Positions 41,793-63,142 of a DNA stretch of 64,000 nt are shown here, piece by piece (within the stretch, counting starts at the first letter, position 1; every line of letters starts with the position of its first letter). The DNA is taken from the NCBI RefSeq assembly GCF_001429285.1, contig NZ_LMJJ01000010.1, forward strand, positions 1-64,000. Direction: 5' to 3'. Below the pieces are notes generated by a model that had not been told where the DNA came from, made no database searches, and saw only the letters and a list, made by a program, of their open reading frames with translations. This DNA comes from Ensifer sp. Root278 (GTDB lineage Bacteria > Pseudomonadota > Alphaproteobacteria > Rhizobiales > Rhizobiaceae). A program made the translations under genes and the position numbers.

Positions 41793-41817
41793 GGAACAGG
41801 ATGAGCAGTGCGCAGTT
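41793..41817 (+). promoter_or_regulatory. General-stress sigma (EcfG-type) promoter of the DUF6766 gene
   Basis: GGAAC at 41793-41797 is followed after exactly 18 bases by TT at 41816-41817. The -10 part lies 36 bases before the ATG at 41854. The form GGAAC-N18-TT is the known RpoE2/EcfG consensus. Confidence 0.7.
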
Positions 41818-41853
41818 ACATGCAAGTCGCGTCACGCCTAAAGGGGAGAAAAA

Positions 41854-42510
41854 ATGCGCTTTCTCAGGGATAACGGGCTCTCCATTGTCTTAGTCGCTCT
41901 GTGGCTCGCCACAGTTGCGGGAATGCTATTCAGCGGATGGAGCGTTTATGTACGCGAGCTCGCCGATCACCGTTCGGCTCAGATCGGGCTGGCCGCTTAC
42001 GCAAAATCTGGACACTTCTTCTCATCGCTTTTTGAAAACTGGGAATCGGAGTTCCTGCAAATGTCGGCCTATGTGATGCTCACAGCTTTCCTGTATCAGC
42101 GCGGCTCAGCCGAATCGAAGGACCCCGACGAACTGGCGGAACAGGACGAAGGCCCTGAACTGAAGCCGGATGACACGGAAGCTCCGTGGCCGGTTCGCGT
42201 CGGCGGTTTCGCGAAGTGGTTATATTCCTACTCATTGGGCCTTGCTCTCGGTCTTCTTTTCCTCCTGACCTTCGTCCTCCATCTCCTCTACAGCAGCGAG
42301 GCTGCAAATGCCGAAGCCTTGATGCACGGACAGCCAGCGGCCTCGGTTGCCGAGCATCTCGTCAGCGCGCAGTTCTGGTTCGAGTCTTTCCAGAACTGGC
42401 AAAGTGAGTTCCTTTCGACAGCCGTTATCGTCGTGTTCTCGATCTTCCTGAGATTCCGGGGCTCACCCGAATCGAAAGCGGTCGCTGCGCCCCACGGGAA
42501 AACGGGGTGA
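41854..42510 (+). CDS. DUF6766 family membrane protein
   Basis: The 218-residue protein starts MRFLRDNGLSIVLVALWLAT. Hydrophobic segments lie at about residues 8-28, 68-82, 125-147 and 190-205. The repeated phrases FENWESEFLQMSAYVMLTAF and FQNWQSEFLSTAVIVVFSIF suggest an internal duplication. This is the DUF6766 pattern. AAAGGGGAG precedes the ATG. It is probably an inner-membrane protein of the general stress regulon; function is unknown. Confidence 0.85.
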   Translation: MRFLRDNGLSIVLVALWLATVAGMLFSGWSVYVRELADHRSAQIGLAAYAKSGHFFSSLFENWESEFLQMSAYVMLTAFLYQRGSAESKDPDELAEQDEGPELKPDDTEAPWPVRVGGFAKWLYSYSLGLALGLLFLLTFVLHLLYSSEAANAEALMHGQPAASVAEHLVSAQFWFESFQNWQSEFLSTAVIVVFSIFLRFRGSPESKAVAAPHGKTG

Positions 42511-42647
42511 GCGACCTTGCAAGATATCAAAGGCGGGCCTCGCAGTTATCAAACACATGCCCCCGGTGGTTGAGAACGCCTCATTTCATCACTTGCTTAT
42601 ATTAAACCGGTGGGCGATCCTGCTGCCGGTGGATCATGGAGGGGAAA

Positions 42648-42935
42648 ATGATTGGCTTTACCGACAAGGAGATAGCGGCTGAGCTAAAGCGCCGTGCTGA
42701 TGCGATGCAAACGCCAGACCAACGCCAGAGAGCAGCGGCGCGCAGTGCCGAGCTACAACGGATGGATCTCATGTCTCCACTGTCGCAACCCAATGCCCTC
42801 ATGGGAAGCAACCGACCCAGAGAACCCGATCTGCGATACCTGCATGGGCTGGTGACACATCGTCGTTGGAGGCGGATATGGAAAACCACTGGGCGTCACT
42901 TGAGGCTGAATATCAGGGCAACGACATTGAAGTGA
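42648..42935 (+). CDS. Small unknown protein with strong ribosome site
   Basis: An ATG at 42648 is preceded by GGAGGGG, giving a 95-residue product (MIGFTDKEIAAELKRRADAM, then QRQRAAARSAELQRMDLMSP). The first 60 residues look like a real helical protein. The end overlaps the next small gene by 58 bases and is basic, which may reflect a frameshift. No family recognised. Confidence 0.5.
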   Translation: MIGFTDKEIAAELKRRADAMQTPDQRQRAAARSAELQRMDLMSPLSQPNALMGSNRPREPDLRYLHGLVTHRRWRRIWKTTGRHLRLNIRATTLK

Positions 42936-43102
42936 TCTCTACTGATCCGCTGCTTGGTCGCCTTCAACTCATGGCCGAGCAAGATGAAGTCGTTGAGGTC
43001 ATGCTGGACCGCGCGACCGCGGAACAACTCCTATCTGCCCTGGTGCAGTTCCTCGCCCACGGAGAGGGCGACGACGCCACCAGCTTCTCCGCGGCGCAGT
43101 AG
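42878..43102 (+). CDS. Small unknown acidic protein
   Basis: From the ATG at 42878 (GGAGG just upstream) the 74-residue product reads MENHWASLEAEYQGNDIEVI, then VVEVMLDRATAEQLLSALVQ. It is acidic and likely helical. It overlaps the end of the preceding small gene. A real gene is plausible; function unknown. Confidence 0.6.
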   Translation: MENHWASLEAEYQGNDIEVISTDPLLGRLQLMAEQDEVVEVMLDRATAEQLLSALVQFLAHGEGDDATSFSAAQ

Positions 43103-43108
43103 TAACAT

Positions 43109-43182
43109 TGGTTCAGGCTCCACGGTTCGAACGTGGGACGTTGGTGCCAAAGGCGGATGCCTTACCGCTTGGCTAAGCCTGG
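43109..43182 (-). tRNA. tRNA-Gln(TTG)-like gene with weak anticodon stem (possible tRNA pseudogene)
   Basis: Reading the minus strand from 43182, the D arm GCCAAGCGGTAAGGC, a perfect five-pair T stem CCACG/CGTGG around TTCGAAC, six of seven acceptor pairs, discriminator A and encoded CCA are present. The anticodon loop would be CTTTGGC with anticodon TTG (glutamine). However, its stem (TCCGC against ACCAA) pairs poorly. So either the anticodon arm has decayed or I have misplaced it. The overall form is clearly tRNA-derived. It sits just before a broken PIG-L gene, and tRNA genes are common integration sites. Confidence 0.65.
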
Positions 43183-43243
43183 TGAGATGGCAACTTGATA
43201 ATTGCTGGTGCCTCCACCCTGGAGCCGTGGAAGCAGACCGTCG

Positions 43244-43820
43244 ATGAACACGCGCGATGAAGCAAGCAAGGCTCCGGCACAGCCTATTCCGCTCTCGTTC
43301 GGTCGAACCCTGGTGATCGCACCTCACCCCGACGACGAGGTGCTAGGTGCAGGCGGAACGATTGCGCGTCTGGCCGCGGAAGGCGAGCGAGTTTTCGTGG
43401 CGATCGTGACTGAGGGGCGCCCGCCCGCCTTTTCGGCAGAAAGCGTCGCAAAAGTCCGGTCGGAAGCTAATCAGGCTCATGCGCTGCTTGGGGTGGAGGA
43501 AACCTTCTGGCTAGGCTTTGAGGCGGTCGGTCTCGATCTTGCCGGGCATTCGGCCGTCAACAGTTCGCTTTCGGGTTTGGCTCGCTCCCTGTCACCCGAA
43601 ACTAGCCTTCTCCCGTTTCCAGGCGATATCCATAGAGACCACCAGCTGACTTTCTTGTCGGCGCTTGTGGCGAGCCGACCGCACCAGGAAAGCTTTCCCC
43701 TTCGTATCCTGGCCTATGAAACGCTGTCCGAGACCAACTGGAACGCGCCCTACCTGAACGCCCGCCTTCACACCGAACATCTTCGTCGACATTTCGCATC
43801 ATCTCGACAACCATAATTAA
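43244..43820 (+). pseudogene. PIG-L/LmbE family N-acetylglucosamine deacetylase-like, frameshifted and truncated
   Basis: The start MNTRDEASKAPAQPI leads to the zinc motif IAPHPDDEVLGAGGTIARLA and later PFPGDIHRDHQLTFLSALVA, both typical of the LmbE/PIG-L fold. The frame continues to ETLSETNWNAPYLNA. There a four-base duplication (near 43761) shifts it: the family ending AFTPNIFVDISHHLD is read in another frame and stops at 43820. The usual further 40 or so residues are missing. The gene is thus doubly damaged, though the zinc site itself is intact. Confidence 0.85.
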
Positions 43821-44414
43821 CCGGTTCGAAGCCTCTGCGCGTCATTCCAGCGTAACATGGCTGCCCGTGAGCTGAATGTACCCCCAGCGCTGCGTGCCGG
43901 CAGGCAAAAGCCGTCAAAAAAGTTAGGCGAGCAACTGCTCAGGCCGGTCCTTTTGCCGGAGTGGATCGCTATATCGGATACTGAAAATCTTACGCATCGA
44001 GCCATGGGGGATTGGACGCCGACAACGCGGTACAGGGCGAGGTCCGCAACGCCTCTCGAACCTTGTCGGCAGCGGACTGACGCAACCACGAGAGAAGGTA
44101 GTCGATGTTTACGCGACCGTTCAGATCTCTGGCCTGAGGTTTTGCAACTCCTAAAGGCATTTGCGCGAGAGGATCCAAACTGCGTCCGAGGAAAAAACGG
44201 GAAACCCAGCGACCGGACAACCGAAGTAAGACTGAGACCTTTGCGGCGAGCAATGGGACTGAAGTCCCATAGCGGAACCATTAGCGCCACCATACCTCTC
44301 TTAGAAGCTCCGCACGCCGGAGCGACAATCGATGAATTTCTAGCCTCGCATGCTTTCAAATGCAGACAACCGGGGCCAGAATCGACCCTGACCATGGCCC
44401 CTTGACTACCTCAC
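43821..44414. other. Intergenic stretch with conflicting open frames and no recognised gene
   Basis: Long open frames exist on both strands over 43.85-44.4 kb, but none resembles a family and codon patterns do not favour one strand. A good plus-strand terminator closes the stretch at 44415, suggesting that something upstream, protein or small RNA, is transcribed rightward. Confidence 0.4.
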
Positions 44415-44439
44415 CGGCTCCTCAGGGAGCCGTTTTTTT
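44415..44439 (+). terminator. Rho-independent terminator
   Basis: CGGCTCC (44415-44421), loop TCAG, GGAGCCG (44426-44432), then seven T. A textbook terminator on the plus strand with no clear gene before it. Confidence 0.85.
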
Positions 44440-44539
44440 GGCTGGTGCGAGTTTGACTGTGGGTCTCAGTCAGGGGCAAAGGCAGTTCGTTGCCCACCGC
44501 GCTAAGTGCGTTTTGCGTACGAAAAGCCGTGGAGACACT

Positions 44540-44944
44540 ATGATCACGCGTCGGATGATCCTGACAGCATTCTGGCCGGCAGTCTGCATCCTCGCCATCT
44601 CTTTGCCCTACAGCCTCGAAATGTCCAGCGCCGGGCTTGCGGTCGTCAAGACGGGCGCCTTCGCTGGCAATGGTAATGGAGGCGGGGGCGGAAATGGCGG
44701 GAGTGGTGGCGGCAGCGGAGGTGGGAATGCTGGCGGCAACAGCGGTGGGAATTCGAAGTCCAACAGCTCCGGTCGTGGGAACGCAAAGGCAAACGGGCAG
44801 GATGTCGGCGTTCGCCACCAAGGCGGCATTACCGAAGAGATTGTGAATGGCCGCTACATCATGAAGGATGGCCGCGGACGCACCATCATCAACCGCCGCG
44901 CGACGGCAAACGATAGAAAACGGATAGATTCATTCTTGCATTAG
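44540..44944 (+). CDS. Secreted glycine-rich unknown protein
   Basis: The 134-residue product starts MITRRMILTAFWPAVCILAI. The N-terminus is hydrophobic and may be a signal peptide. Next comes a low-complexity Gly/Asn/Ser block of about 40 residues (GNGNGGGGGNGGSGGGSGGG and following). The end is short and charged (ITEEIVNGRYIMKDGRGRTI). The family is not known; it may be a periplasmic or surface protein. The upstream 100 bases show no GGAAC-type promoter. Confidence 0.75.
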   Translation: MITRRMILTAFWPAVCILAISLPYSLEMSSAGLAVVKTGAFAGNGNGGGGGNGGSGGGSGGGNAGGNSGGNSKSNSSGRGNAKANGQDVGVRHQGGITEEIVNGRYIMKDGRGRTIINRRATANDRKRIDSFLH

Positions 44945-45035
44945 GTGAGAATAGGCGCACGGGGCCGGTTGCGCTTGCTTCGGCTACGGCTGTGCGATTG
45001 TCCTTTGAGTACGATCTTTTGCACTGTCTGGGGGA

Positions 45036-45425
45036 TCACGTGTCTGTGTCGGGAGATCCCGCCCGTCCGGTGGTGATAGAACTTCCAGTGGCGGAAAGTG
45101 GATCGCTGGCGGGAAAGGAGTTCTTCAATCCTTCGTCGAGCTGCTCTTCCAACGTACCGGTGTCCTTGGCGCTACGAGCACTTCGCAATGATTCAACGGC
45201 AGGCGAGCCGATAACGTCAGGTTCATCGGCCCTGTCGCTCTCGACGTCACCGAATGTGGCCACTTGCACCATCAGGGCCTTCGCCTTTGCCACGGCGGCA
45301 TCGACGCCTAGATCGTCCGGCGAGCTTTCCAGACGGACAGAAATCACGTCGCCGCCTTCTGCGACCCATTCGACTGTCATTATGCCGCCTGGATCAGATA
45401 AAACCTGTTGCCCGACAATGTTCAT
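45036..45425 (-). CDS. Unknown protein of the stress region with a short conserved C-terminal motif
   Basis: From ATG 45425 the product has 129 residues (MNIVGQQVLSDPGGIMTVEW). The middle is acidic and the end contains LEEQLDEGLKNSFPASDPLS, a motif of the type DTFPASDP that recurs in short proteins of many alphaproteobacteria. No signal peptide. A GGAAC-N18-TT promoter lies 31 bases before the ATG, placing it in the general stress group. Function unknown. Confidence 0.75.
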   Translation of the reverse strand: MNIVGQQVLSDPGGIMTVEWVAEGGDVISVRLESSPDDLGVDAAVAKAKALMVQVATFGDVESDRADEPDVIGSPAVESLRSARSAKDTGTLEEQLDEGLKNSFPASDPLSATGSSITTGRAGSPDTDT

Positions 45426-45456
45426 TGTGGCTGCCTCCATTTAGGACCAAGACTAG

Positions 45457-45481
45457 AACCCGTTTGAGCGTCAGTTGTTCC
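45457..45481 (-). promoter_or_regulatory. EcfG-type promoter of the gene at 45036
   Basis: On the minus strand GGAAC (45481-45477), 18 bases, TT (45458-45457). It lies 31 bases from the ATG at 45425. Confidence 0.72.
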
Positions 45482-45675
45482 GAGCTTCCGATGGATCGGC
45501 GGTTTCAACGGGGTCCTGCAGCACGAGGATCTTTTTGGCCCAACGCAATGGCAGTCAAGCTCCCTAGCCATCCGGCCTGCAACCGTCTCCGCAGACCGAG
45601 AGCTGTAAACGGTGCGGGAGGGCCGCCTGCAAGCGCCACCGTCGTCATCGTAGGCCTTGATCGTCCTGCCTTGTC

Positions 45676-45700
45676 GGAACCCCAAATCAATAGACGAGTT
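45676..45700 (+). promoter_or_regulatory. EcfG-type promoter of the SDR-ligD operon
   Basis: GGAAC at 45676-45680, 18 bases, TT at 45699-45700, then 31 bases to the ATG at 45732. No other promoter of this form lies before ligD, so ligD and the genes after it may depend on this one. Confidence 0.72.
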
Positions 45701-45731
45701 TATTGCGTATACATCACGTGAGGATTGCCCA

Positions 45732-46625
45732 ATGACCGATCGTCTGACTATGCAGGACCCCCGAATGCAATACCCCTCGCCACCCTTCGAACCGCAACCG
45801 CAACCCGCGCCAGGTCTCGTTGGCGAAATGCATCCCAAACCTGATCATGGCGAAGAAACGTACCAAGGGGCAAATCGGCTGAAGGGGCGGAAGGCCCTCA
45901 TCACCGGCGGTGATTCAGGTATCGGACGCGCCGTAGCGATTGCGTTTGCGCGTGAGGGGGCAGACGTCGCCATTTCCTATCTGCCGGAGGAGGAGCCGGA
46001 CGCACGAGAAGTCATAGATTTGATCGAAGCGGAGGGGAGGAAGGCCCTGGGTTTGCCCGGCGACGTGAAGAATGAAGATTGGTGTCGGGAGCTGGTTTCG
46101 CAAACGCTGCGGGAGCTTGATGGGATTGACATCCTGGTGATCAATGCGGCTCGCCAACAGTTTCGCAAAGACGTGTCGCTTGTAACGTCAGAGGATTTCG
46201 ACGCTACGCTGAAGACCAATCTCTACGCATTGCACTGGATTGCTCAGGCCGCCGAGCCTTACCTACCCCCCGGCGCCTCGGTGATCACCACAGCATCCAT
46301 TCAAGCCTATCAACCCTCTCCAATTCTGCTCGACTACGCCACAACCAAAGCGGGGATCGTCGCGTATACCAAGGCGCTTGCAAAGCAATTGATCGGAAAA
46401 GGTGTTCGGGCCAACGTCGTGGCTCCAGGACCGTTCTGGACAGTTTTGCAGCCGAGTGGCGGACAGCCTGACGAGAAGGTGAAGAATTTCGGAAAGGATA
46501 GCGATTTCGGCCGGCCCGGCCAGCCGGTGGAACTGGCCCCCATCTACGTGTTTCTCGCCTCGCAGGAAGCAAGCTTCGTTAACGGCGAGGTTTACGGTGC
46601 GACCGGTGGCAAAGGCGTAGACTGA
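45732..46625 (+). CDS. Short-chain dehydrogenase/reductase (YghA/GsiB-like stress SDR)
   Basis: The 297-residue protein has a proline-rich N-terminal extension (MTDRLTMQDPRMQYPSPPFE) and then the SDR domain: cofactor motif ALITGGDSGIGRAVAIAFAR, NNAG-equivalent LVINAARQQFRKD, and the YxxxK catalytic pair in LLDYATTKAGIVAY. The extension is typical of YghA-type stress SDRs. The cofactor is probably NADP(H). The ligD gene follows 88 bases later, so an operon under the 45676 promoter is likely. Confidence 0.92.
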   Translation: MTDRLTMQDPRMQYPSPPFEPQPQPAPGLVGEMHPKPDHGEETYQGANRLKGRKALITGGDSGIGRAVAIAFAREGADVAISYLPEEEPDAREVIDLIEAEGRKALGLPGDVKNEDWCRELVSQTLRELDGIDILVINAARQQFRKDVSLVTSEDFDATLKTNLYALHWIAQAAEPYLPPGASVITTASIQAYQPSPILLDYATTKAGIVAYTKALAKQLIGKGVRANVVAPGPFWTVLQPSGGQPDEKVKNFGKDSDFGRPGQPVELAPIYVFLASQEASFVNGEVYGATGGKGVD

Positions 46626-46713
46626 TGCCTCGACGGCCTTCGCTGCTTCGGACCGGCTTTGGAGCGGGCCTTGCGGACATGACCAGCGCAGGGCGGAAAA
46701 CAATCTGTGAGCG

Positions 46714-49344
46714 ATGTCGATGACTGAAGACAGACTATCGACCTACAGGAACAAGCGCGATTTCCGGCAAACGCAGGAGCCGAGCGGCAAGGCACATGTC
46801 GCATCTTCGAACCGCCGGCGCTTCGTCATCCAGAAGCACGATGCCACGCGACTGCACTACGACCTGAGGCTGGAGCTGGACGGTGTCTTCAAATCCTGGG
46901 CTGTTACCAAAGGGCCTTCCCTCGACCCACATGACAAGCGGCTCGCCGTCGAGGTCGAGGACCACCCACTCGATTATGGCGACTTCGAAGGGACGATCCC
47001 GAAGGGCCAATATGGCGGGGGGACGGTCATGTTGTGGGACCGAGGCTATTGGGAATTCGAGGGGGAAAAGTCTCCAGAGGCGGCGCTGAAGAGAGGCGAC
47101 TTCAAGTTCTCGCTGGACGGAAACCGGCTTCACGGCAGTTTCGTGCTGGTCCGCATGCGCGCTGGCGGGAAACGATCAAACTGGCTGCTGATCAAGCACC
47201 ACGACGATTTTTCCGTCGCGAAAGACGGCGCCAAAGTGCTGGAGCAGCATACGACTTCCGTGGCTTCCGGCCGAAAGATGGACGACATAGCGAATGGCAA
47301 AGGCCGCAAGCCGAGCGCCTTCATGCAGACAAAGGGCGCGGTCGAGGCGGATGCGGTCTGGGATAGCAAGCAAGGTTTAGCGTGGGTAGAACCGAAGAAG
47401 TCGCGAAAGCGGCTGGCAAAGTTACAGGACGGAACTCTGCCGGATTTCATCGCGCCGCAGCTTTGCGAAACGGTCCAACGTCCACCGGCCGCTGACAACT
47501 GGTTGCACGAGATCAAGTTCGACGGCTATCGAATCCAATTGCGCGTCGTTGACGGCATGGCAACGCTAAAAACCCGAAAAGGGCTTGATTGGACTGGCAA
47601 ATACAGGGAGATCGCTGAAGCCGCATCCGCATTGCCGGATTGTATCATCGACGGCGAAGTCTGCGCGCTCGATGAAAACGGCGCTCCGGATTTTGCCGCA
47701 CTCCAGGCGGCACTATCTGAAGGAAGGACCGGCAATCTCGTCTATTTTGCCTTTGACCTCCTGTTCCGTCACGGCGAAGATTTGCGAGCCGATCCGCTTG
47801 CCGAACGCAAGGACCGCCTGCAGGTGGTACTCGGCGAAGCCGGAAACAATCCTCGACTTCGTTTTGTCGAGCATTTTGAGACAAGTGGAGATGCGGTGCT
47901 TCGATCCGCGTGCAAGCTGTCCCTGGAGGGCATCGTCTCCAAACGCGCCAACGCTCCCTATCAGTCGGGCCGGACCGACACCTGGGTCAAATCCAAGTGT
48001 CGCGCTGGCCACGAAGTGGTGATCGGTGGCTATGCGAAGACCGATGGTCGGTTCAGGTCCCTCTTGGTTGGCGTCTACCGAAGCACCCATCTCGTTTACG
48101 TCGGTCGTGTCGGCACGGGGTTTGGTGCGAAGAAAGTTGCAAGCTTGCTTCCCAAGCTGAAAAAGGCGGAAGTCGAAAAATCACCCTTCACGGGCATTGG
48201 CGCACCGAAGAAGGGAAGCGAGATTGTCTGGGTAAAGCCGGAACTTGTTGCCGAGATTGAGTTCGCAGGATGGACGGCGGATGGGCTTGTTCGGCAGGCT
48301 GCCTTTAAGGGGCTTCGCGATGACAAGCCGGCCATCGAAGTGAAGGCCGACAAGCCAGCGTCGCCCGCAAAAACGCCGACACCGGAAGCGACGCGAACGT
48401 TCAAGTCAACCTTGTCCCGCAAAGGGCAAAAAGCAGAGATCATGGGTGTCCTGATATCCAGCCCCGACAAACCCCTCTGGCCGGACGCCGGCGACGGTGA
48501 ACCCGTCACCAAGGAAGATCTTGCTCGTTACTACGAGGCCGTCGGGACCTGGCTCATCGATCACATCCGGGGGAGGCCCTGCTCCATCATCCGTGCGCCT
48601 GACGGAATTGCCGGTCAGCAGTTCTTCCAGCGCCACGCGCTGCCCGGTACTTCGAACCTTCTCGAACTTGTGACAGTCTTTGGAGACAAGAAGCCATACT
48701 TGCAAGTTGATCGTGTAGAGGGCCTCGCCGCGATCGCGCAAATCGGCGGCATCGAACTCCATCCCTGGAATTGCAAGCCCGGTCGTCTCGAAATTCCCGG
48801 ACGCTTGGTGTTTGATCTCGACCCCGGACCCAATGTGCCATTCTCCGCGGTTGTTACTGCGGCACGGGAAATGCGCGACCGGCTCGATGATCTCGTCCTT
48901 GTCAGCTTCTGCAAGACGACAGGTGGCAAGGGGCTTCATGTTGTCACGCCGCTTGCTGTTGGAAATCGCAAGCGGCTCTCATGGACAGAGGCCAAGGGGT
49001 TTGCCCACGACGTGTGCCGTGAAATGGCTGAGGACAATCCGGATCTATATCTGATCAAGATGACGAAGAGCCTGCGGGAGGGGCGTATTTTCCTCGACTA
49101 TCTGCGCAATGATCGAATGGCTACGGCAGTCGCCCCACTGTCACCGCGAGCCCGGCCCGGTGCGACGGTATCGATGCCTCTCACGTGGACACAGGTGAAG
49201 TCCGATCTCGACCCGAAGCGTTTCACCGTGCGCACGGTGCCGGCGCTGCTTGCGAAAACCATCGCGTGGAAAGATTACTGCGACAGCGAGCGGCCCCTCG
49301 AGCAGGCAATAAAGCGTCTTGCAAAGGCCAAGCAGGCAGCGTGA
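46714..49344 (+). CDS. ligD: ATP-dependent DNA ligase D (phosphoesterase-ligase-polymerase)
   Basis: The 876-residue protein carries all three LigD modules. The N-terminal 3'-phosphoesterase domain (about 15-190) has [18 protein letters not shown] with His42, His48 and Asp50. The central ligase domain has the AMP-binding lysine Lys268 in EIKFDGYR. The C-terminal polymerase/primase domain has FDLDPGPNV with Asp701 and Asp703 as metal ligands. LigD processes and joins broken ends in bacterial non-homologous end joining with Ku, whose two genes lie 1.5-3 kb downstream on the opposite strand. The next gene follows six bases after the stop. Confidence 0.97.
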
Positions 49345-50787: not shown

Positions 50788-51600
50788 TTATTTTCGCCCG
50801 CGACTTTCCGATGCGACCGACTTTTTGAGGGCATCCATTATGTTGATGACGTTGTTCGGCGTTGCTTGCGAACTCGATGATCCGGGCTTTGCCTTGGCGG
50901 GTCTCTTCATGGCCTTCTTTTTGGCAGCAATAATATCGACCAGACGTTCCTGCACCGGGTCGGCCACCATTTTGGGGTTCCAGTCCTTTGTCAGCTTCTT
51001 TATCAGTCGCTGCACGAGCGGCATCATCTCGGAGTCCGCCTTCACCTCGCTGGCTGCGGTAAAATAGGCGGCTTCACCACGAACCTCGTCGCCGTAGCGC
51101 AGCGTCCACAGAACAATGCCCTTGCCACGAGGCTCAAGCATGACGGCACGTTCGCGGCGCGAGATGACCAGCCGTGAAATGCCGACCATTTTCTGGGCCT
51201 CCATCGCGTCGCGAATGACGCAGAAAGCCTCCTCGCCGACCGGTTCATTCGGAGACAGGTAGTACGGGGTATCGAGCCAGATCCATTCGATACTGTCTCG
51301 CGGGGTGAACGTCGAAATATCGATGGTCCTGGTGCTGTCCAATGCGACGGTCTCGAGCTCCTCATCCTCGAGGATGACGTATTCGTCTTCCCCGCGCTGG
51401 TATCCTTTGACCTCGTCTTCTTCCTTGACCTCTTTTCCGGTTACCGCGTCGACGAAGCGGCTCTCAACGCGATTTTGGGTTTCGCGATTAAGCGTATGAA
51501 AGCGAACCTTCTCGCTTTCTGATATCGCCGGCATCATCTGGACCGGGCAGGTTACCAGTGAGAGCTTCAGATAGCCTTTCCAGTAGGGGCGAACAGCCAT
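50788..51600 (-). CDS. ku: Ku DNA end-binding protein (second copy)
   Basis: The 270-residue protein starts MAVRPYWKGYLKLSLVTCPV, the invariant opening of bacterial Ku. It has FHTLNRETQNRVESRFVDAV, the VKGYQRGEDEYVILEDEELE segment and a basic C-terminal tail (KKKAMKRPAKAKPGSSSSQA). It is co-directional with the other Ku gene and only 14 bases after it. Two Ku proteins encoded side by side could form a heterodimer. Ku rings bind DNA ends and recruit LigD. Confidence 0.96.
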   Translation of the reverse strand: MAVRPYWKGYLKLSLVTCPVQMMPAISESEKVRFHTLNRETQNRVESRFVDAVTGKEVKEEDEVKGYQRGEDEYVILEDEELETVALDSTRTIDISTFTPRDSIEWIWLDTPYYLSPNEPVGEEAFCVIRDAMEAQKMVGISRLVISRRERAVMLEPRGKGIVLWTLRYGDEVRGEAAYFTAASEVKADSEMMPLVQRLIKKLTKDWNPKMVADPVQERLVDIIAAKKKAMKRPAKAKPGSSSSQATPNNVINIMDALKKSVASESRGRK

Positions 51601-51614: not shown

Positions 51615-52508
51615 TCAGCTGGCCTGGCGCGACGGCGCCGCCGGCTTCGACTTGGCAGAGGGTTTTTCCGCCTTTTGTCGGGAGGCGCCTGCGTTGGCAT
51701 TGGCGGCTTTTCGTTTGGACTTGGACTTGCTTGCACTGAGGCCGGCACTCTCGCGAAGCGCCTTGAGCAGATCGCCCGGCTTGGATGCGATGGGCGCCTT
51801 CTTCTTCGGCAGAGAACGCCCCTCGATTTTCGCTTTCACCAGTTCAGCGACGGCCGCCTCGTAACGGTCGTCGAAAGCACCGGCGTCGAAACTGCCCTTC
51901 TTGGTGCGAATGATGTGCTCTGCAAGTTCGAGCATCTCGCCCTCGATCTTCAGGTCGGGAAGGCCGGCGAAGGCTTCCTTCGACGATCGCACTTCGTAGT
52001 CGAAATTCAGGGTCGCAGCGATCAGCCCCTTACCATGTGCCCGTATCAGGACTGTTCGCATCCGACGGAAAAGCACGGTTTTGGCGATCGCCGCGACCTT
52101 CGCCTTGGACATCCCAGCGCGAAGGAGCGCGAAAGCTTCGCCCCCCGTCTTGTCGGGTGCAAGGTAATAGGGCTTGTCGAAGTAAGTGGTGTCGACTTGT
52201 GAGCAAGGAATAAACGCCTCGATCTTCAGGGTCTTGTCGCTGTCGGGGACCGCAGCGGCAATCTCCTCGGGTTCGAGCACTACATATCGCCCGTCATCCA
52301 CCTCATAACCCTTCACCTGGTCGTCGGCGTTGACCGGACGTCCGGTCTCGCTGTCGATAAACTCGCGCTTGACTCGATTTCCGGTTTTTCGGTTGATCGT
52401 GTTGAAGCTGATGCGTTCCGACGATGAAACCGCCGTATAAAGCGCGACCGGGCAGGTCACTTCCCCGAACTTGATATAGCCTTTCCAGTTCGCTGTTGGG
52501 GCAACCAT
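51615..52508 (-). CDS. ku: Ku DNA end-binding protein (first copy)
   Basis: From ATG 52508 the product has 297 residues. It opens MVAPTANWKGYIKFGEVTCP and has FNTINRKTGNRVKREFIDSE, VKGYEVDDGRYVVLEPEEIA, and a long basic lysine/alanine tail (SKSKSKRKAANANAGASRQK), which in Ku proteins helps DNA threading and LigD contact. The GGAAC-N18-TT promoter at 52540-52564 lies 31 bases from the ATG and probably drives both Ku genes. A GTG-based extension to 52541 is not used. Confidence 0.96.
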   Translation of the reverse strand: MVAPTANWKGYIKFGEVTCPVALYTAVSSSERISFNTINRKTGNRVKREFIDSETGRPVNADDQVKGYEVDDGRYVVLEPEEIAAAVPDSDKTLKIEAFIPCSQVDTTYFDKPYYLAPDKTGGEAFALLRAGMSKAKVAAIAKTVLFRRMRTVLIRAHGKGLIAATLNFDYEVRSSKEAFAGLPDLKIEGEMLELAEHIIRTKKGSFDAGAFDDRYEAAVAELVKAKIEGRSLPKKKAPIASKPGDLLKALRESAGLSASKSKSKRKAANANAGASRQKAEKPSAKSKPAAPSRQAS

Positions 52509-52539: not shown

Positions 52540-52564
52540 AACCCTGTCAGCGGACAAACGTTCC
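52540..52564 (-). promoter_or_regulatory. EcfG-type promoter of the Ku operon
   Basis: On the minus strand GGAAC (52564-52560), 18 bases, TT (52541-52540), 31 bases before the ATG at 52508. It links both Ku genes to the general stress response. Confidence 0.75.
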
Positions 52565-52737
52565 ACGCCTCTTCACGTCGACCTGGTCTGCGTCTTACTG
52601 GATGCGGTTAAGGGCTGGATTGGAACTATAGGAGCTGCTCTGTAACCGAGCGGGGTCTTTGTGGTTCCGTGAGGAACAGGAGCGGCGAGGGCATTTCCGA
52701 ACTCGCCCGATGCTCACCATAGAAGCAAGCGCAGCGC

Positions 52738-52762
52738 GGAACCGCTCGGAGTTCCGGTCGTT
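52738..52762 (+). promoter_or_regulatory. EcfG-type promoter abutting a small gene
   Basis: GGAAC at 52738-52742, 16 bases, CGTT at 52759-52762 (equally GGAAC-N18-TT). The ATG at 52771 starts only eight bases after the -10, so the transcript would be leaderless or almost so. Confidence 0.72.
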
Positions 52763-52770: not shown

Positions 52771-52971
52771 ATGGCCGGCACACTCGAAACCCATGAACGG
52801 AAACTGGTCGCAATTCTGCGCGCTTCCGCCAGATTGCATTTTGTTGACGACGACAAGGCAGACGCCGAAGTCGAGCGGGTGCTGCGCTTAGCAATCAGAG
52901 AAGCCGAAGCCGGCCGCTCCCGACTCGATAAGAAACGGTGGCTTCTACGCATGATGCACGTGCCATCGTGA
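52771..52971 (+). CDS. Small unknown protein, probably from a leaderless stress transcript
   Basis: The 66-residue charged protein (MAGTLETHERKLVAILRASA, then VERVLRLAIREAEAGRSRLD) has no family I can name. There is no ribosome site because the stress promoter ends right before the ATG. Small alphaproteobacterial proteins of this size are often stress induced. Real translation is plausible but not proven. Confidence 0.6.
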   Translation: MAGTLETHERKLVAILRASARLHFVDDDKADAEVERVLRLAIREAEAGRSRLDKKRWLLRMMHVPS

Positions 52972-53622: not shown

Positions 53623-53648
53623 AACAATGCAACGCAGTTGTCGGTTCC
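53623..53648 (-). promoter_or_regulatory. EcfG-type promoter in front of a pseudogene
   Basis: On the minus strand GGAAC (53648-53644), 19 bases, TT (53624-53623), 43 bases from the ATG at 53579. Spacing of 19 is allowed in the RpoE2 consensus. Confidence 0.6.
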
Positions 53649-53740: not shown

Positions 53741-53765
53741 GGAACAAATGGATGCTCAGCCTGTT
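53741..53765 (+). promoter_or_regulatory. EcfG-type promoter of the gene at 53803
   Basis: GGAAC at 53741-53745, 18 bases, TT at 53764-53765, 37 bases before the ATG at 53803. Confidence 0.72.
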
Positions 53766-54329: not shown

Positions 54330-54923
54330 TCAAGGCCTGTAGCGGAGACGCTCTTTCTCGATCTCTTCGGGAGTGTAGGGATCGAGCTTTTCGTCGAAGC
54401 GTGTCCAGCCTTGCTCGAGGTAAGCCGCGCGGCGTTGTTCGGGATCTACCCAGCTGCCCCGGCGTAGGATGGCCTGGGCGTCCGCGTAGAGGCTCTCGTC
54501 AACCCGGGCGGTGACAACGGCTCCGCCGCGGCGCACGCCCTCCGCATAGACATGGGCATGCTCTTCGGGGACGCCGGATTCGGTCATCGCGCCGATCAGT
54601 CCCCCCGCAGCGCCACCGGCGACTGCGCCGGCTGCTGCACCGGCTGCCGTCGCGGCAAGCCAGCCCGCCGCCACCACAGGTCCGACACCGGGAATGGCCA
54701 TGACGCCAAGCCCGGTCAAGAGACCCCCGATGCCACCAACTGCAGCACCTAGGCCTGCGCCTGTACCTGCGCCCTCGGCAGCATTGCTGTCGTTGGAGTA
54801 CCGGTCACCGACATTGTTGGAAACGATACTGATATCGTCAGACGGCACGCCGCGATCTTCCAGCGCGCTCACCGCCGCGTGTGCATCGGAGTAATCGTCA
54901 AAAAGTCCACTAACGGTTTTCAT
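54330..54923 (-). CDS. General stress protein 17M-like (YflT-type) protein
   Basis: The 197-residue protein opens MKTVSGLFDDYSDAHAAVSA, the sequence of the general-stress-17M/YflT domain (residues 1-60). It then has a long glycine/alanine-rich membrane-like hairpin (GLGAAVGGIGGLLTGLGVMA and AATAAGAAAGAVAGGAAGGL, about 55-112), followed by a second domain half and a charged end. Found as stress-induced proteins in many bacteria. It starts 21 bases after the upstream small secreted protein gene and is likely co-transcribed. Confidence 0.9.
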   Translation of the reverse strand: MKTVSGLFDDYSDAHAAVSALEDRGVPSDDISIVSNNVGDRYSNDSNAAEGAGTGAGLGAAVGGIGGLLTGLGVMAIPGVGPVVAAGWLAATAAGAAAGAVAGGAAGGLIGAMTESGVPEEHAHVYAEGVRRGGAVVTARVDESLYADAQAILRRGSWVDPEQRRAAYLEQGWTRFDEKLDPYTPEEIEKERLRYRP

Positions 54924-54944: not shown

Positions 54945-55265
54945 TTAGTTGGCGACCACGTTGCCCTGGTAGTCGAGTGCGATCTGGACAGACTTTCCGT
55001 CCTTCATGGCGCTGCCTCGCCAGACGCCCTCGCTATCGAGTTTGAGACCAGCAACGTCGGTGTAACCGGCTTCAACGATGCGTTTCTTGGCCTGTTCTTC
55101 GGTGAAGCTATTTGCCCCGGCGACCGGGGCGGTGGGATTGGTGGAGTCCGGCGTCGCGACGGCCGGTGTGTCACCGTTGGTAGTGGCCGGAGGCGTCGAA
55201 GTCTGCGCGAGCGCGCCAAAGGTCGTTGCGCCGAGGAATACCGCGGCGAGCAGCAGTTTTTTCAT
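54945..55265 (-). CDS. Small secreted protein (PepSY-like end)
   Basis: The 106-residue protein has a signal peptide (MKKLLLAAVFLGATTFGALA), a Thr/Pro/Ala-rich spacer and a C-terminal part (FTEEQAKKRIVEAGYTDVAG, then GVWRGSAMKDGKSVQIALDY) that resembles PepSY-type folds. It is predicted periplasmic. It heads an operon with the 17M-like gene, and the stress promoter lies 46 bases upstream. Confidence 0.82.
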   Translation of the reverse strand: MKKLLLAAVFLGATTFGALAQTSTPPATTNGDTPAVATPDSTNPTAPVAGANSFTEEQAKKRIVEAGYTDVAGLKLDSEGVWRGSAMKDGKSVQIALDYQGNVVAN

Positions 55266-55311: not shown

Positions 55312-55336
55312 AACTTTGCTCGAGTTTTTTGGTTCC
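55312..55336 (-). promoter_or_regulatory. EcfG-type promoter of the 55265/54923 operon
   Basis: On the minus strand GGAAC (55336-55332), 18 bases, TT (55313-55312), 46 bases from the ATG at 55265. Confidence 0.72.
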
Positions 55337-55760: not shown

Positions 55761-55785
55761 AACGGGACAACAACGGATCTGTTCC
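55761..55785 (-). promoter_or_regulatory. EcfG-type promoter of the gene at 55459
   Basis: On the minus strand GGAAC (55785-55781), 16 bases then CGTT (55764-55761), which is also GGAAC-N18-TT. 47 bases from the ATG. Confidence 0.76.
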
Positions 55786-56024
55786 CTCAAACCGGCGCCC
55801 GAAATCGAAGTTTTTTCAAGGAACTTTCAGGTATTTGGCGCGTTTGAGGCGCGCGTATTCTGCGCTCTTATAATCGCTGGCCCGGTGGACGCGCCGCCAG
55901 CGCACTGACGAAACCAACCCGTCGTCTGCCTGGCGACGGGTAGGCCGTTTCTTTTTTGACGGTAGAAGCCATGTTCATGTTGCCGCCGCATGGCCACATT
56001 CCATGATGCAGCTCTGCGCTCGGG

Positions 56025-56324
56025 TCATGAGTCCAGGTGCTCTGGCATTTCTTTCAGCTGATCCTTCGTCCAGGTGGTGATGGCGTGAACGTCGCCGTCA
56101 TCGTCACGCATGAAGTCGAGATCCGCCAATGGCACCGCGACCGGTTTCGCGCCAATCCCGAGGAAGCCGCCAACATCAATAATCGCAGTGCTGTTGGCGC
56201 CGACGCCGTGAAGGTGATCCACCGTTCCGACCTTGTCATCGTCTGCGCCGTAAACGGTCGCGCCTTCGAGGTTTGCTGGTATCAGTTCCGAAGGATCAAG
56301 GCGCACGTGATTGGTATGGTCCAT
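56025..56324 (-). CDS. PRC-barrel domain protein
   Basis: The 99-residue protein (MDHTNHVRLDPSELIPANLE, then GATVYGADDDKVGTVDHLHG and FLGIGAKPVAVPLADLDFMR) is a single PRC-barrel, the domain found in RimM and photosynthetic reaction centre H subunit and in many stress-induced small proteins. Full length. The stress promoter lies 32 bases before the ATG. It is probably a cytosolic protein-interaction module. Confidence 0.93.
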   Translation of the reverse strand: MDHTNHVRLDPSELIPANLEGATVYGADDDKVGTVDHLHGVGANSTAIIDVGGFLGIGAKPVAVPLADLDFMRDDDGDVHAITTWTKDQLKEMPEHLDS

Positions 56325-56356
56325 CTCTTTAGTCTCCGGTTATGTCGGACTGAAAG

Positions 56357-56381
56357 AACCGGCTCAGCGGTAAACGGTTCC
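56357..56381 (-). promoter_or_regulatory. EcfG-type promoter of the PRC-barrel gene
   Basis: On the minus strand GGAAC (56381-56377), 18 bases, TT (56358-56357), 32 bases from the ATG at 56324. Confidence 0.74.
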
Positions 56382-59094: not shown

Positions 59095-59105
59095 CCCGGC
59101 TGCAA

Positions 59106-59384: not shown

Positions 59385-59413
59385 CCTGGGTTCCCGAACA
59401 ATGTCGCCATAGG

Positions 59414-59821: not shown

Positions 59822-59828
59822 AGATCAC

Positions 59829-60686
59829 CTAGAGAATGAGCCGCGCTGCCGCGGCGCCGATTGCGCTTGGAAATGCAAGCACCACCGTGCTCATGATCGC
59901 CTGGGTCAGTTCGATGCCGTCCAGCCGATGAAACGTCCAGAGACAGTAGAAGCTGATCGCAAAGGCGACGGCGTAGCCGGGGAGCGTGAAGCGGATAAGG
60001 GCATGCCAAACGGGTGTGCCTTCTTCCAGTTCGTGTCCGCCCGAAAACGACAGCGCGTAGACAAAACCATGCATCAGCACGATGGACGAAACGATGAGTG
60101 CGATTGCGTGCCAGGGTGACATCTTGAAGGAAATCAGGATCATTTCCTCGGTCGGGGCGACATTCAATCCGAGAAACAAGGCGCCGACGGCCATCATGAA
60201 GAGCTCGCCGCCGTAGCCACTTTGCGCATCATCGTCGAGGGGGTCCTGTGCGTCCTCGTCATCATCGTCGCGCCCGCCCAATTCGCTGCGACCAAGCAAC
60301 GCACCGATGCTGGCCGGAACCGTCTGAATGGCGATCATGCCTGCCGCCTCGGGTAGAGCGTGCCCGACGCTCAGAACGCCTAGGGCAGACAGCACGAAGG
60401 CGCTGGCCAACAGACCCAGGAAATAGGCAATGCTGGCATCGCGCACTGCCTCATGCCAGGTCGAAATATTTTCAAACCCGATCCGGCGCGCCAGGAGGAT
60501 GAGCAAGGGGATGTTGACGAGGAGCAACAGAAGGAGCCTTGATCGGTCGATATAGAGCCCGAGTTCCCACATCTCCATCGTCAGGAACATGGGCAGCGCA
60601 AAGAGCAGTGCGCCAGCCAATCCGCGCGCCAGGCCCTTGGAAAATCGACTGTGGTCGAAATTGACATGCGTTTGCTCGATCGCCAT
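59829..60686 (-). CDS. TIGR02587 family integral membrane protein
   Basis: From ATG 60686 the product is 285 residues (MAIEQTHVNFDHSRFSKGLA) with about seven to eight membrane segments and a conspicuous acidic loop (GGRDDDDEDAQDPLDDDAQS) in the middle. It matches the TIGR02587 pattern, including LNVAPTEEMILISFKMSPWH. A stress promoter with a perfect GGAAC-N16-CGTT lies 29 bases upstream. The stress link for this pair is inferred from that promoter. Confidence 0.9.
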   Translation of the reverse strand: MAIEQTHVNFDHSRFSKGLARGLAGALLFALPMFLTMEMWELGLYIDRSRLLLLLLVNIPLLILLARRIGFENISTWHEAVRDASIAYFLGLLASAFVLSALGVLSVGHALPEAAGMIAIQTVPASIGALLGRSELGGRDDDDEDAQDPLDDDAQSGYGGELFMMAVGALFLGLNVAPTEEMILISFKMSPWHAIALIVSSIVLMHGFVYALSFSGGHELEEGTPVWHALIRFTLPGYAVAFAISFYCLWTFHRLDGIELTQAIMSTVVLAFPSAIGAAAARLIL

Positions 60687-60715
60687 TCCGGTCCCCTTTT
60701 CGGCTGCCATCTCAA

Positions 60716-60740
60716 AACGTCGACAAGCTCCGCAAGTTCC
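60716..60740 (-). promoter_or_regulatory. EcfG-type promoter of the TIGR02587/TIGR02588 operon
   Basis: On the minus strand GGAAC (60740-60736), 16 bases then CGTT (60719-60716). 29 bases from the ATG at 60686. Confidence 0.78.
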
Positions 60741-61155
60741 TCGTTTTCCTGATCTGGACCTTGTTCTCCAGCGAATCCAGGATGTCTTCGCAGAAGTCGA
60801 CATCACAAAGTTTCACGAATGGTCTGAAGCCCGCCGGGTGTAAACTGATCTCCAGCAAAACGAGCACAGCACCTCTCGCTAGTGCCATTGAGGCTCAGCT
60901 TGCCGCAATCGTGAAGTCATCGTTTGACGCAATCGTCAGCAGGGATTTTGGGCGGAACCGTGCGGACTTGGTACGGTTCTAAGGTAAGCCCCTTTCCAAT
61001 CAGCCGACCCCGCAAAGCAAAACCGAATAGGCGCTCGGCTGCGTTGGTTCTCACTCATTTTTCCTCGGGCGCGATCGACGCTCCGCCTGAACCTGTGCCG
61101 AGCGAAGGTCGTGCGCCTACGAGCCAAGTCTCCAAACCGCATTTTGTTCCCGTTC
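60741..61155. other. Divergent promoter region between TIGR02587 and the DUF892 gene
   Basis: About 400 bases without a gene. It contains a second stress-type promoter at 60954. The plus frame is open upstream of 61215 but its added residues are not like the family. Confidence 0.5.
60954..60978 (+). promoter_or_regulatory. EcfG-type promoter, distal, upstream of DUF892 gene
   Basis: GGAAC at 60954-60958, 18 bases, TT at 60977-60978. It is 236 bases before the ATG at 61215. It may give a long 5' leader or a small RNA. Confidence 0.5.
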
Positions 61156-61180
61156 GGAACCATTGCAGCTGGGCGATGTT
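61156..61180 (+). promoter_or_regulatory. EcfG-type promoter, proximal, of the DUF892 gene
   Basis: GGAAC at 61156-61160, 18 bases, TT at 61179-61180, 34 bases before the ATG at 61215, where AAGGAGG forms the ribosome site. Confidence 0.75.
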
Positions 61181-61214
61181 GGAGCGACTCCACCACACCG
61201 TAAAGGAGGTTGCC

Positions 61215-61706
61215 ATGCCAGAGAAGACGCTTGAAACGCTGTTTCATGATGGCCTGATGGACATCTACTACGCTGAACGGCAGATCCTGAAAGCGCTGCC
61301 GAAGATGGCACGCGCGGCGCAACTGCCGGACAGCAAGGCAGCGTTCGAAAAGCACCGGGACGAAACCGAAGTCCATGTGGAACGCTTGCAACAGGTCTTT
61401 GAAATTTTCGGCAAGCGCGCCCAGGGAAAGACCTGCGAGGCCATTCAGGGAATTATTGCAGAGAGCGAGGAGATCATGGAGGAATTCAAGGGGAGCCCCG
61501 CACTTGACGCTGGCCTCATCTCGTCGGCACAGGCGGTCGAGCACTATGAAATTTCTCGCTATGGCACTCTGAAGACCTGGGCCAAGCAGCTCGGGCTGCA
61601 AGAGGCGGTGTCGCTTCTCGATCAGACCCTGCAGGAAGAAGGCGCCACCGACAAGGCCCTTAGCAAGCTTGCGGTGACGGCGGCGAACATCAAGGCCGCT
61701 GCCTGA
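61215..61706 (+). CDS. DUF892 ferritin-like protein (YciE/YciF family)
   Basis: The 163-residue protein (MPEKTLETLFHDGLMDIYYA, then ERQILKALPKMARAA) is a ferritin-like four-helix bundle with the YciF pattern of Glu and His residues that can bind metals (HRDETEVHVERLQQVFEIFG, AVEHYEISRYGTLKTWAKQL). YciF-type proteins are widespread stress proteins; some rhizobial members are under the general stress sigma factor. AAGGAGG lies just ahead of the ATG and two stress promoters lie upstream. Confidence 0.94.
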   Translation: MPEKTLETLFHDGLMDIYYAERQILKALPKMARAAQLPDSKAAFEKHRDETEVHVERLQQVFEIFGKRAQGKTCEAIQGIIAESEEIMEEFKGSPALDAGLISSAQAVEHYEISRYGTLKTWAKQLGLQEAVSLLDQTLQEEGATDKALSKLAVTAANIKAAA

Positions 61707-62318
61707 TGGCGTTTGGACGCTTGAGGGCGCCGTCGCCTCCAAGCGTCCTTGCCGCTTCATCGAATATCAGTTTCAACTCTGTAGACCGCCTAAGGCGTAG
61801 TGATGAAGCGAGTGGTCCCAGGAGGTCCAGGTCTCGTCATCGAAAGTGACGAACGAGCGCGACCTCGCAACGAAATGTAGGACGAAGATGGCTTCCGGCA
61901 AGAATACGAGCGACCACCCCGCGAATAGGTTGGCGACGGACCCTCCGGGCGATCACGTTGGCGCCGGGTACGCGGAAATCGACGATATACCGGATCGTCT
62001 GCTGATACTCGCAAACAGGCTGCAAAAAGCCCTCGATTCGCGTCGAGTTGTGGCCAATGCCCAACGCCCAAGCTTCAAGGAGAATCGAGGCGACCAGTGA
62101 AGTGAAGCGGATCGAGGATGAGAAATGATACGGGACTTGCAGCAACTGCGGGTACTGGTTGCCGAGCATGAATTCATCGTCGCAAACGATATTGCGCCCC
62201 CGGGGCGACCCCACCGATTCCAGCCACCCACAAATCGGGGCGAAACGGTCATGCTGGATTCTGGTATCCTGATCCGAGGTGTTTGTCCGTTCTGTTTAAG
62301 GAAGCGGTGGAGGCAATT
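61707..62318. other. Short stretch with fragments of regulator-like genes
   Basis: No complete gene outside the small frames listed separately. The stretch lies between the DUF892 gene and the convergent sigma factor gene and holds what look like truncated signalling genes. Confidence 0.45.
61888..62100 (+). CDS. Small unknown protein, faintly NepR-like
   Basis: From ATG 61888 a 70-residue product reads MASGKNTSDHPANRLATDPP, then AEIDDIPDRLLILANRLQKA. The IPDRLLILANRLQKAL helix faintly recalls the core of NepR anti-sigma proteins (VPDRFLDLL type). The resemblance is weak and made by eye only. It is near an EcfG-type sigma gene and upstream of a receiver-like fragment. Confidence 0.4.
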   Translation: MASGKNTSDHPANRLATDPPGDHVGAGYAEIDDIPDRLLILANRLQKALDSRRVVANAQRPSFKENRGDQ

Positions 62319-62349
62319 TCAGGGAAGCGGAACGCCGCTCATCCGGTAG
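62125..62349 (+). pseudogene. Response-regulator N-terminal fragment (possible)
   Basis: The frame starts MIRDLQQLRVLVAEHEFIVA, which is the first strand and helix of a receiver domain (LRVLVAEDEFLVA type; the usual second Asp is His here). After about 24 residues the family resemblance ends (PPGRPHRFQPPTNRG). The rest overlaps the convergent sigma factor gene. Probably a truncated receiver. Confidence 0.45.
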
Positions 62350-62837
62350 GCAAGCTCCTCGCGCGCTCGGCTGAGCCTGCTCTTGATCGTGCCGACAGCA
62401 CAGTCGCAGATGTCGGCGGCTTCCTTGTAGCTCAGCCCATATCCAGCAACGAGGATCAGCACCTCGCGATGGTCGGGTGCCATAGTGTCGAGAGCGCTGC
62501 ACAGTTCCACGGTTAAGACGCACCAGTCCTGCGGTGCCGGCATCGGGATCGGTAGCTCGGCGCAGTTAACGAGGCCCGGGGACTCGCGCCGGCGCAGCTT
62601 GTACTGAGTCCGGAAAGCGTTGTGCATGATGGTGAAAAGCCAGGACTTAAGATTGGTTCCCGGTTGGAAACCGTCAATGCCGCGCAGTGCTCGAAAAAGC
62701 GTTTCCTGCAGCAGATCATCCGCTTCGAAGCTCGACGACACAAAGGTGCGCGCAAAGGCCCTAAGCGCCGGAATGAGGTCAACAACCTGGCTCTCCAGCG
62801 GCCGAGACCGCTGGACGGTTTCGTGGACAGAAGGCAT
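62319..62837 (-). CDS. ECF sigma factor, EcfG/ECF15 type (general stress sigma factor)
   Basis: From ATG 62837 the product has 172 residues. Region 2 is ALRAFARTFVSSSFEADDLL with QETLFRALRGIDGFQPGTNL and KSWLFTIMHNAFRTQYKLRR, the classic EcfG opening. Region 4 is LILVAGYGLSYKEAADICDC with AVGTIKSRLSRAREELAYRM. This is the general stress sigma type of alphaproteobacteria, which recognises GGAAC-N16-CGTT. A GGAAC-N18-TT promoter lies 41 bases upstream of its own ATG, so it appears to be autoregulated. Genomes of this group usually carry one main copy plus paralogues; this may be a paralogue. Confidence 0.93.
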   Translation of the reverse strand: MPSVHETVQRSRPLESQVVDLIPALRAFARTFVSSSFEADDLLQETLFRALRGIDGFQPGTNLKSWLFTIMHNAFRTQYKLRRRESPGLVNCAELPIPMPAPQDWCVLTVELCSALDTMAPDHREVLILVAGYGLSYKEAADICDCAVGTIKSRLSRAREELAYRMSGVPLP

Positions 62838-63142
62838 TGTAACTGCCTTTCGCAATAGCTGAATTTGCTCTTTCTAACAATGCGCGGTCGGCACTTAAGT
62901 TCCCGCTACAATGCAGAGGGCAGAAGCGACAGGCGCCCTTGCCTCCCGCATTCAGCGGGACAGATCAAAGCCCGGCAAGACCGCGGGTGCTAGAACAAGG
63001 CAGCCTTGATCTTCACGCGGGCGACATTGATACACAGAGGTTTGAATAAGCTAGAATGGCATCTATGCAACGGTGGTGCCTGCGCGTGCGCACGCTTTCT
63101 CGTCGCGTTCGACCGCTCTGTGCATCATGAACAGGCGTACCC
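62838..63142. other. Divergent regulatory region of sigma factor and CheB/CheR genes
   Basis: About 305 bases without a gene. It contains the sigma factor promoter at 62879. No second GGAAC-type site faces the CheB/CheR gene. Confidence 0.6.
62879..62903 (-). promoter_or_regulatory. EcfG-type autoregulatory promoter of the sigma factor gene
   Basis: On the minus strand GGAAC (62903-62899), 18 bases, TT (62880-62879), 41 bases from the ATG at 62837. With a 16-base spacer the -10 reads CATT rather than CGTT. Confidence 0.68.

Follow-up and report, generated by a model that had tools for sequence, protein, structure and literature searches.

A dense island of probable EcfG-type promoters around an RpoE5-type sigma factor gene in Ensifer sp. 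Root278

General stress regulons are usually regarded as scattered core functions. Here, in contrast, a large block of promoter sites of the general stress response (GSR) type sits with a second sigma factor gene, and does so in many species with changing gene content. The window that we analyzed comprises bases 1 to 64,000 of contig C10 (NZ_LMJJ01000010.1; 119,416 bases) in the 7,095,460-base genome of Ensifer sp. Root278. Its right part, from 41.7 to 63.0 kb (21.3 kb, the island in all statistics below), carries the sites, which an earlier note had read as a physically clustered regulon with its own extracytoplasmic function (ECF) sigma factor.

Several described systems resemble parts of this locus. 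The RpoE2 regulon of Sinorhizobium meliloti has the same promoter form, has rpoE5 as a target and likewise comes with two PhyR and two NepR genes (PMC3616915; PMC6180224). On pSymB of S. meliloti ABS7, however, 105 GGAAC-N17-GTT matches (52 for the reversed pattern) are spread over 1.64 Mb in smaller groups, against 29 in 53 kb here. EcfG2 of Rhizobium etli is, similarly, a non-canonical EcfG-like sigma that is encoded on an accessory replicon and partly depends on the canonical sigma, but no targets clustered around its gene are reported in the accessible text (PMC3892343). Sphingopyxis granuli has its end-joining genes Ku and LigD within the GSR regulon, although the accessible text does not describe them within a promoter-dense island (PMC7083833). 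Finally, the components of the PhyR-NepR-EcfG partner switch (PMC12148442; PMC8103513) have likely counterparts in relatives of this locus, where a sigma, a NepR-like open reading frame (ORF) and a protein with receiver and sigma2-like parts co-occur. Unlike in PhyR, the receiver comes first and the sigma2-like part last, no sigma4-like part was found in the protein, and all that the window retains of its gene is a remnant.

We read the window as the left part of a GSR island of about 53 kb, whose genes are probably transcribed from separate sigma-EcfG promoters of the form GGAAC-N16/17-(c)GTT, mainly by the canonical RpoE2-type sigma; we put the probability of this reading at roughly 80%. The sites, their clustering and their conservation, like the gene families and orthology given below, were computed here. 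Sites were counted as GGAAC-N18-TT or in the sharper form GGAAC-N17-GTT (some densities use GGAAC-N17/18-GTT), near-palindromic ones once per strand. All fourteen sites named in the earlier note are present, thirteen with 18 bases between the boxes and one (53623) with 19, on both strands. That list fell short of the total, since the island holds 19 GGAAC-N18-TT matches where thirteen had been listed. From 839 matches genome-wide, 2.5 would be expected (P = 3e-11). The sharper form is present 15 times against 0.88 expected from a genome total of 294 (85+74+59+76), a 17-fold excess (P = 5e-14; with sliding windows roughly allowed for, 9e-11). Similarly, the island's 21.3 kb contains 17 GGAAC-N17/18-GTT sites, whereas 27 stretches of the same genome (540 kb), picked irrespective of sites or sigma genes, average 0.056 per kb.

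Such an excess could in principle reflect chance matches in DNA of lower GC content, which drops near 36 kb of the window from roughly 63 to 58 percent. However, 200 dinucleotide shuffles of the island gave a mean of 2.7 and a maximum of 8 GGAAC-N18-TT matches and a mean of 0.67 and a maximum of 4 GGAAC-N17-GTT matches, so that both observed counts (19 and 15) exceed every shuffle. The strongest test against chance is the spacing peak: when spacings of 8 to 28 were scanned, N17 gave 15 matches in the island and every other spacing 0 to 3, compared with 21 at N17 and 3 to 18 at other spacings in the 540 kb of genome controls. Together with the conservation described below, the enrichment, the shuffles and this single sharp peak led us to reject composition as a general explanation, which we regard as extremely improbable, although individual sites, 60954 for example, may have arisen by chance.

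The cluster reaches beyond the window, ending near 94.5 kb of the contig, with 29 GGAAC-N17-GTT sites in 52.8 kb where 2.2 are expected, and these sites are mostly non-chance. Their density far exceeds that of the replicon and of the genome at large. The clustering proposed in the earlier note is thus real, but the island is larger than it stated and the regulon is not wholly clustered, as 265 of the 294 matches lie elsewhere. Of several clusters in the genome, the C10 island is densest, the smaller ones being at C2:51-73 kb (8 sites), C34:137-140.5 kb (7), C27 (6), C43:30-37 kb (6) and C12:359.5-361 kb (5).

We then consider conservation, for which each site was aligned to relatives with 120 bases on either side. 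Thirteen of the fourteen sites could be aligned, and for 11 of them one or more relatives retain both boxes. On the reverse strand, these are the sites before a 129-aa ORF (45457-45481, kept in 1/1 relatives), before the two Ku genes (52540-52564, 2/3), before the PepSY-YflT pair (55312-55336, 2/2), before an 84-aa ORF (55761-55785, 2/2), before the PRC gene (56357-56381, 1/1), before DUF2391 (60716-60740, 3/3) and before the sigma gene (62879-62903, 5/5). On the forward strand, they precede a short-chain dehydrogenase (SDR) gene (45676-45700, 2/2), a 66-aa ORF (52738-52762, 1/1), an 87-aa ORF (53741-53765, 1/2) and DUF892 (61156-61180, 5/5). Homologues of the downstream genes agree in several cases: a site precedes 19/19 homologues of the 129-aa protein (reverse-strand control 0/19), 4/4 of DUF892 (control 0) and 4/4 of DUF2391 (control 1). 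Beyond the earlier list, a divergent GGAAC-N17-GTT site at 55820-55844 (forward) is kept in 2/2 relatives, those at 52644-52668 (reverse, upstream of Ku) and 54302 are kept in 0/1 each, and 53094 has no alignment.

Two candidates raised by these extra sites were rejected. By eye, the 52644 match looked like an orthologous, conserved second promoter for Ku, but it is not kept in the alignment. A conserved small RNA after 55820 is not supported either, with a fold z of -1.6, 12 of 200 shuffles folding as well, and downstream sequence that is not conserved. As an observation in its own right, the promoter at 55820-55844 is conserved while the sequence that it would read differs between relatives.

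The placement of the sites also fits promoters. The earlier note had placed twelve of them 29 to 47 bases before a start codon, and we likewise find 12 of the 14 followed, about 23 to 46 nucleotides past the -10 box, by a start codon that has a ribosome-binding-site-like sequence and opens an ORF of 50 codons or more; the exceptions are 52738 and 60954. At 52738, the 66-aa ORF (52771-52971) begins 8 nucleotides downstream, with identical spacing at an annotated 66-aa gene in NZ_CP118612.1. Published GSR promoters have the form GGAAC-N16-CGTT (PMC7083833; PMC4167512), and motifs lie about 16 to 50 nucleotides before the ATG in PMC4167512. The assignment to the RpoE2/EcfG type made in the earlier note therefore holds up, the GTT of the -10 box and the fixed spacing both fitting EcfG. 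The same two features speak against use of the sites by a different ECF sigma that recognizes a similar -35 box. Several ECF groups of S. meliloti do share GGAA-type -35 boxes, but its ECF26 promoters have GGAAT and its ECF29 promoters GGGAAC with a GCATCC-type -10 box (PMC6180224), and we consider this alternative very unlikely. Outside the island, none of the five GGAAC-N18-TT matches in the first 41.7 kb of the window is placed upstream of a gene. The statement that there were no such sites before 41 kb nevertheless misses one upstream-placed N19 match at 16544. This match (16544-16571) is near-palindromic, reads as GGAAC-N19-TT on both strands and lies 33 nucleotides before an ATG-led ORF called as a 158-aa gene; it is perhaps an operator instead of a sigma site.

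Related loci show the same association. All 23 Ensifer/Sinorhizobium sigma loci (L040-L062) carry 0.24 to 1.03 GGAAC-N17/18-GTT sites per kb, while 57 more distant ECF loci from the same search average 0.10. A match to the sigma at E 1e-40 or better is found in 22 of 121 genomes of the family, its own included. Across 20 sigma loci in 18 genomes of other genera, the density of GGAAC-N17-GTT is 0.265 per kb against 0.041 in 17 controls (Mann-Whitney P = 4.6e-5), the controls coming from first contigs of 15 of those genomes with replicon type not matched. Genus membership here follows the tool's grouping, and one genome (G045, 71%) may belong with the Sinorhizobium set. On the Ensifer adhaerens plasmid NZ_CP118612.1 (624 kb), which like C10 permits a comparison within one replicon, 39 of 52 GGAAC-N17-GTT matches lie at 181-214 and 250-277 kb, and these two patches carry counterparts of both halves of the window island. 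On neither of two other plasmids that carry LigD-Ku or island genes does GGAAC-N17-GTT outnumber the reversed pattern overall (NZ_CP070354.1, 34 vs 41; NZ_CP024309.1, 13 vs 29). Since the stretch around LigD-Ku in NZ_CP024309.1 (L147) has zero such sites, the end-joining genes are not always inside such an island.

The sigma gene (62319-62837, reverse strand) encodes an RpoE5-type, EcfG-like factor according to Pfam, a tree, its promoter and an NCBIfam comparison. It matches Sigma70_r2, Sigma70_r4_2 and PhyR_sigma2 (42.5 bits, cut-off 27), shares 72% identity with the S. meliloti copy in locus L046 and, judged from sequence, is the orthologue of S. meliloti rpoE5. As RpoE5 is placed in ECF15 (PMC6180224), the earlier designation as an ECF15 sigma stands. 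The island sigma falls below the cut-offs of its closest NCBIfam models (best PRK12540, 147 bits vs a cut-off of 307), whereas the sigma on C5 passes two subfamily models (PRK12516, 378 bits vs 321). The former is therefore a non-canonical, EcfG-like sigma; we infer the EcfG type of the PRK models from the match of the C5 sigma. The C5 sigma lies together with PhyR and NepR near C5:111 kb, and a second PhyR-NepR pair is found on C12. Only 2 GGAAC-N17/18-GTT sites are present in the 20 kb around the C5 trio (L128), which places the canonical locus outside any dense cluster. A second RpoE5 paralogue (82%) is encoded on C27 inside its own small cluster. The tree, made by a quick method and showing long branches and two starred forks, was used only for grouping RpoE5-type sequences, and it left out four sigma-like proteins of this genome: the two PhyR, a receiver-sigma2 protein and a protein on C34. 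The latter (C34:134600-134752, L037) is short, has a weak PhyR-sigma2 match (25.6 bits, cut-off 27) and is encoded near the promoter cluster at C34:137-140.5 kb.

Which sigma would drive the island promoters is best judged from S. meliloti. The site at 62879, a GGAAC-N18-TT whose -10 box reads ATT, corresponds to the rpoE5 promoter, since the S. meliloti copies (L046, L143, L144) match the string in Table 1 of PMC6180224. There, rpoE5 is activated by RpoE2, while RpoE5 overexpression revealed one putative target, with the authors' caveat that RpoE5 may have been inactive (PMC6180224). The canonical sigma is for these reasons likely the main driver. In an autonomous regulon, by contrast, RpoE5 released from the NepR-like protein would be the main sigma of the island promoters. 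RpoE5-type genes do lie in such clusters in the 23 Ensifer/Sinorhizobium loci, and in other genera the clusters accompany them more often than controls; a NepR-like ORF adjoins the sigma gene, and the two EcfG sigmas of R. etli act in parallel, each preferring its own promoters (PMC3892343). This is nevertheless unlikely: besides the S. meliloti results, the rpoE5 site ends in ATT and the other island sites in GTT, giving no sign of a private shared motif, and the 181-214 kb patch of NZ_CP118612.1 has sites while the sigma gene lies in the other patch. The earlier note was thus right about promoter type and clustering, but its suggestion of the island's own sigma as main driver is unproven and probably wrong.

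With the canonical sigma as main driver, the mechanism might run as follows, taking the RpoE2 dependence of rpoE5, the partner switch and the stress control of Ku and LigD from work on relatives. Under stress, HWE kinases would phosphorylate PhyR, which would strip NepR from the canonical sigma, all three being encoded near C5:111 kb. The freed sigma would then transcribe the island genes unit by unit, rpoE5 included. RpoE5 would be a second, subordinate EcfG-like sigma, perhaps restrained by the local NepR-like protein, and might supplement transcription from part of these promoters or keep it going for longer. The presumed output is a survival kit comprising double-strand-break joining by two Ku proteins and LigD, an error-prone polymerase, catalase and small envelope and stress proteins. 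We infer that the sites fire in this strain, which sigma uses each, and what the NepR-like ORF does. In Mesorhizobium loti, three of four ku genes and one ligD are heat-induced (PMC3989490).

Several observations weigh against this reading or limit it. The reversed pattern has 240 matches genome-wide against 294, so many of the 294 are chance matches. A full CGTT is present in only 4 of the 15 island GGAAC-N17-GTT sites. The N19 match before an 89-aa ORF (53623-53648, reverse) and the match at 60954-60978 (forward), which has no start codon close by, are each lost in the single relative that aligns (0/1). For the site 36 nucleotides before the DUF6766 ORF (41793-41817, forward), nothing is alignable among the relatives, and a site precedes only 1/6 homologues (control 1). 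For SDR homologues the count is 2/4, compared with 3/4 on the reverse strand. LigD has no site immediately upstream. Among the 20 loci of other genera, two have no GGAAC-N17-GTT site and two more have one, which speaks against a general rule. Lastly, C10 is probably an accessory replicon, as judged from its relatives, which are plasmids.

The candidate partner of RpoE5 is a 70-aa ORF (61888-62100, forward) that is convergent to the sigma gene and contains the helix motif P-x-R-L-L-x-L-A. It matches no Pfam family at E up to 1, and the only matches of the Pfam NepR profile in this genome are at C5 and C12. With a profile built from the Sinorhizobium ORFs, the window ORF is recovered at 8e-6 and the canonical NepR at 0.003 (C5) and 0.03 (C12), values that apply to a small six-frame set. 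The S. meliloti-type loci carry a comparable ORF immediately after rpoE5, in 16 of 17 by regular expression and in the seventeenth by profile; such an ORF next to S. meliloti rpoE5 was already noted in PMC6180224. In other genera, the motif is present at 6/20 loci and a receiver-sigma2 homologue at 2/20.

Following the NepR-like ORF, the window retains a 24-residue remnant of the receiver-sigma2 gene (62125-62196, forward). In seven adhaerens-type loci (L040-L043, L057, L140, C27), a NepR-like ORF directly precedes a receiver-then-sigma2-like gene, the intact copy of this genome being at C27:9248-9862 (L135). The intact homologues have the receiver first and the sigma2-like part last, and thus lack the domain order of PhyR, in which the sigma-like domain precedes the receiver (PMC12148442). 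Plasmids of Shinella, Martelella and Mesorhizobium encode homologues with 37-39% identity over 90-97%, in stretches with NepR-like ORFs and 0.30 to 0.67 GGAAC-N17-GTT per kb; two of the three have an annotated sigma gene. By Pfam, the sigma2 match reaches 27.7 bits for the C27 copy and 20.1 for that of NZ_CP118612.1, below the cut-off of 27, and tblastn links the gene weakly to ECF sigma genes (E about 1e-4). In its predicted structure (mean pLDDT 75.5), the clean Foldseek matches (root-mean-square deviation under 4) are only of receiver length, and a profile search of solved structures matched the receiver only. The sigma2 likeness is therefore drawn from Pfam and the weak tblastn matches. 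If borne out, the reversed protein would represent a second way of building the PhyR partner switch.

More tentatively, and with less than even odds, such loci could be portable GSR modules, in which an RpoE5-type sigma, tens of separately promoted stress genes and their own partner switch, made up of a NepR-like protein and the receiver-sigma2 protein with its reversed PhyR order, reside on accessory replicons of Rhizobiaceae and relatives. A plasmid would then deliver a stress kit plus a private input to that kit. Should the sites prove active, survival under stress, with mutagenic break repair as a part of it, would be a transferable package, and many unexplained EcfG paralogues would gain a testable role. 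A literature search by title and abstract, in a collection with few subscription papers, found nothing on a reversed receiver-sigma2 protein, plasmid-borne switches or clustered or plasmid GSR genes.

The island genes themselves were mostly assigned by Pfam. On the forward strand these are the DUF6766 membrane protein (41854-42510), the SDR (45732-46625, its start picked from the site position), LigD with polymerase, phosphoesterase and ligase parts (46714-49344) and the ferritin-like DUF892 protein (61215-61706). The reverse strand encodes Ku protein 2 (50788-51600), Ku protein 1 (51615-52508), a YflT-type general stress protein (54330-54923), a PepSY protein (54945-55265), a PRC-barrel protein (56025-56324) and the DUF2391 membrane protein (59829-60686), as well as the 129-aa protein (45036-45425), for which no family was found. 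A CheB-CheR-PAS-HWE kinase gene starts at 63143 (forward) and runs through the end of the window at 64000 to contig position 67522. Further Pfam families in the window are PIG-L, FAD oxidoreductase and zinc peptidase. Beyond the window, C10 encodes a long catalase (with an ATT-type site 48 nucleotides upstream), a BrkB-type membrane protein, a DinB-type polymerase and an SRAP protein, and two more genes that we take, from first residues and length only, to resemble ImuB and DnaE2.

Beyond about 36 kb of the window, where the GC content falls, a gene caller trained on the remaining genome is less sensitive, as if the island were of other origin. At 43112-43182 (reverse), where a tRNA could mark an insertion, Rfam gives a tRNA match of 37.7 bits while ARAGORN calls no tRNA in the window; this is perhaps a decayed tRNA.

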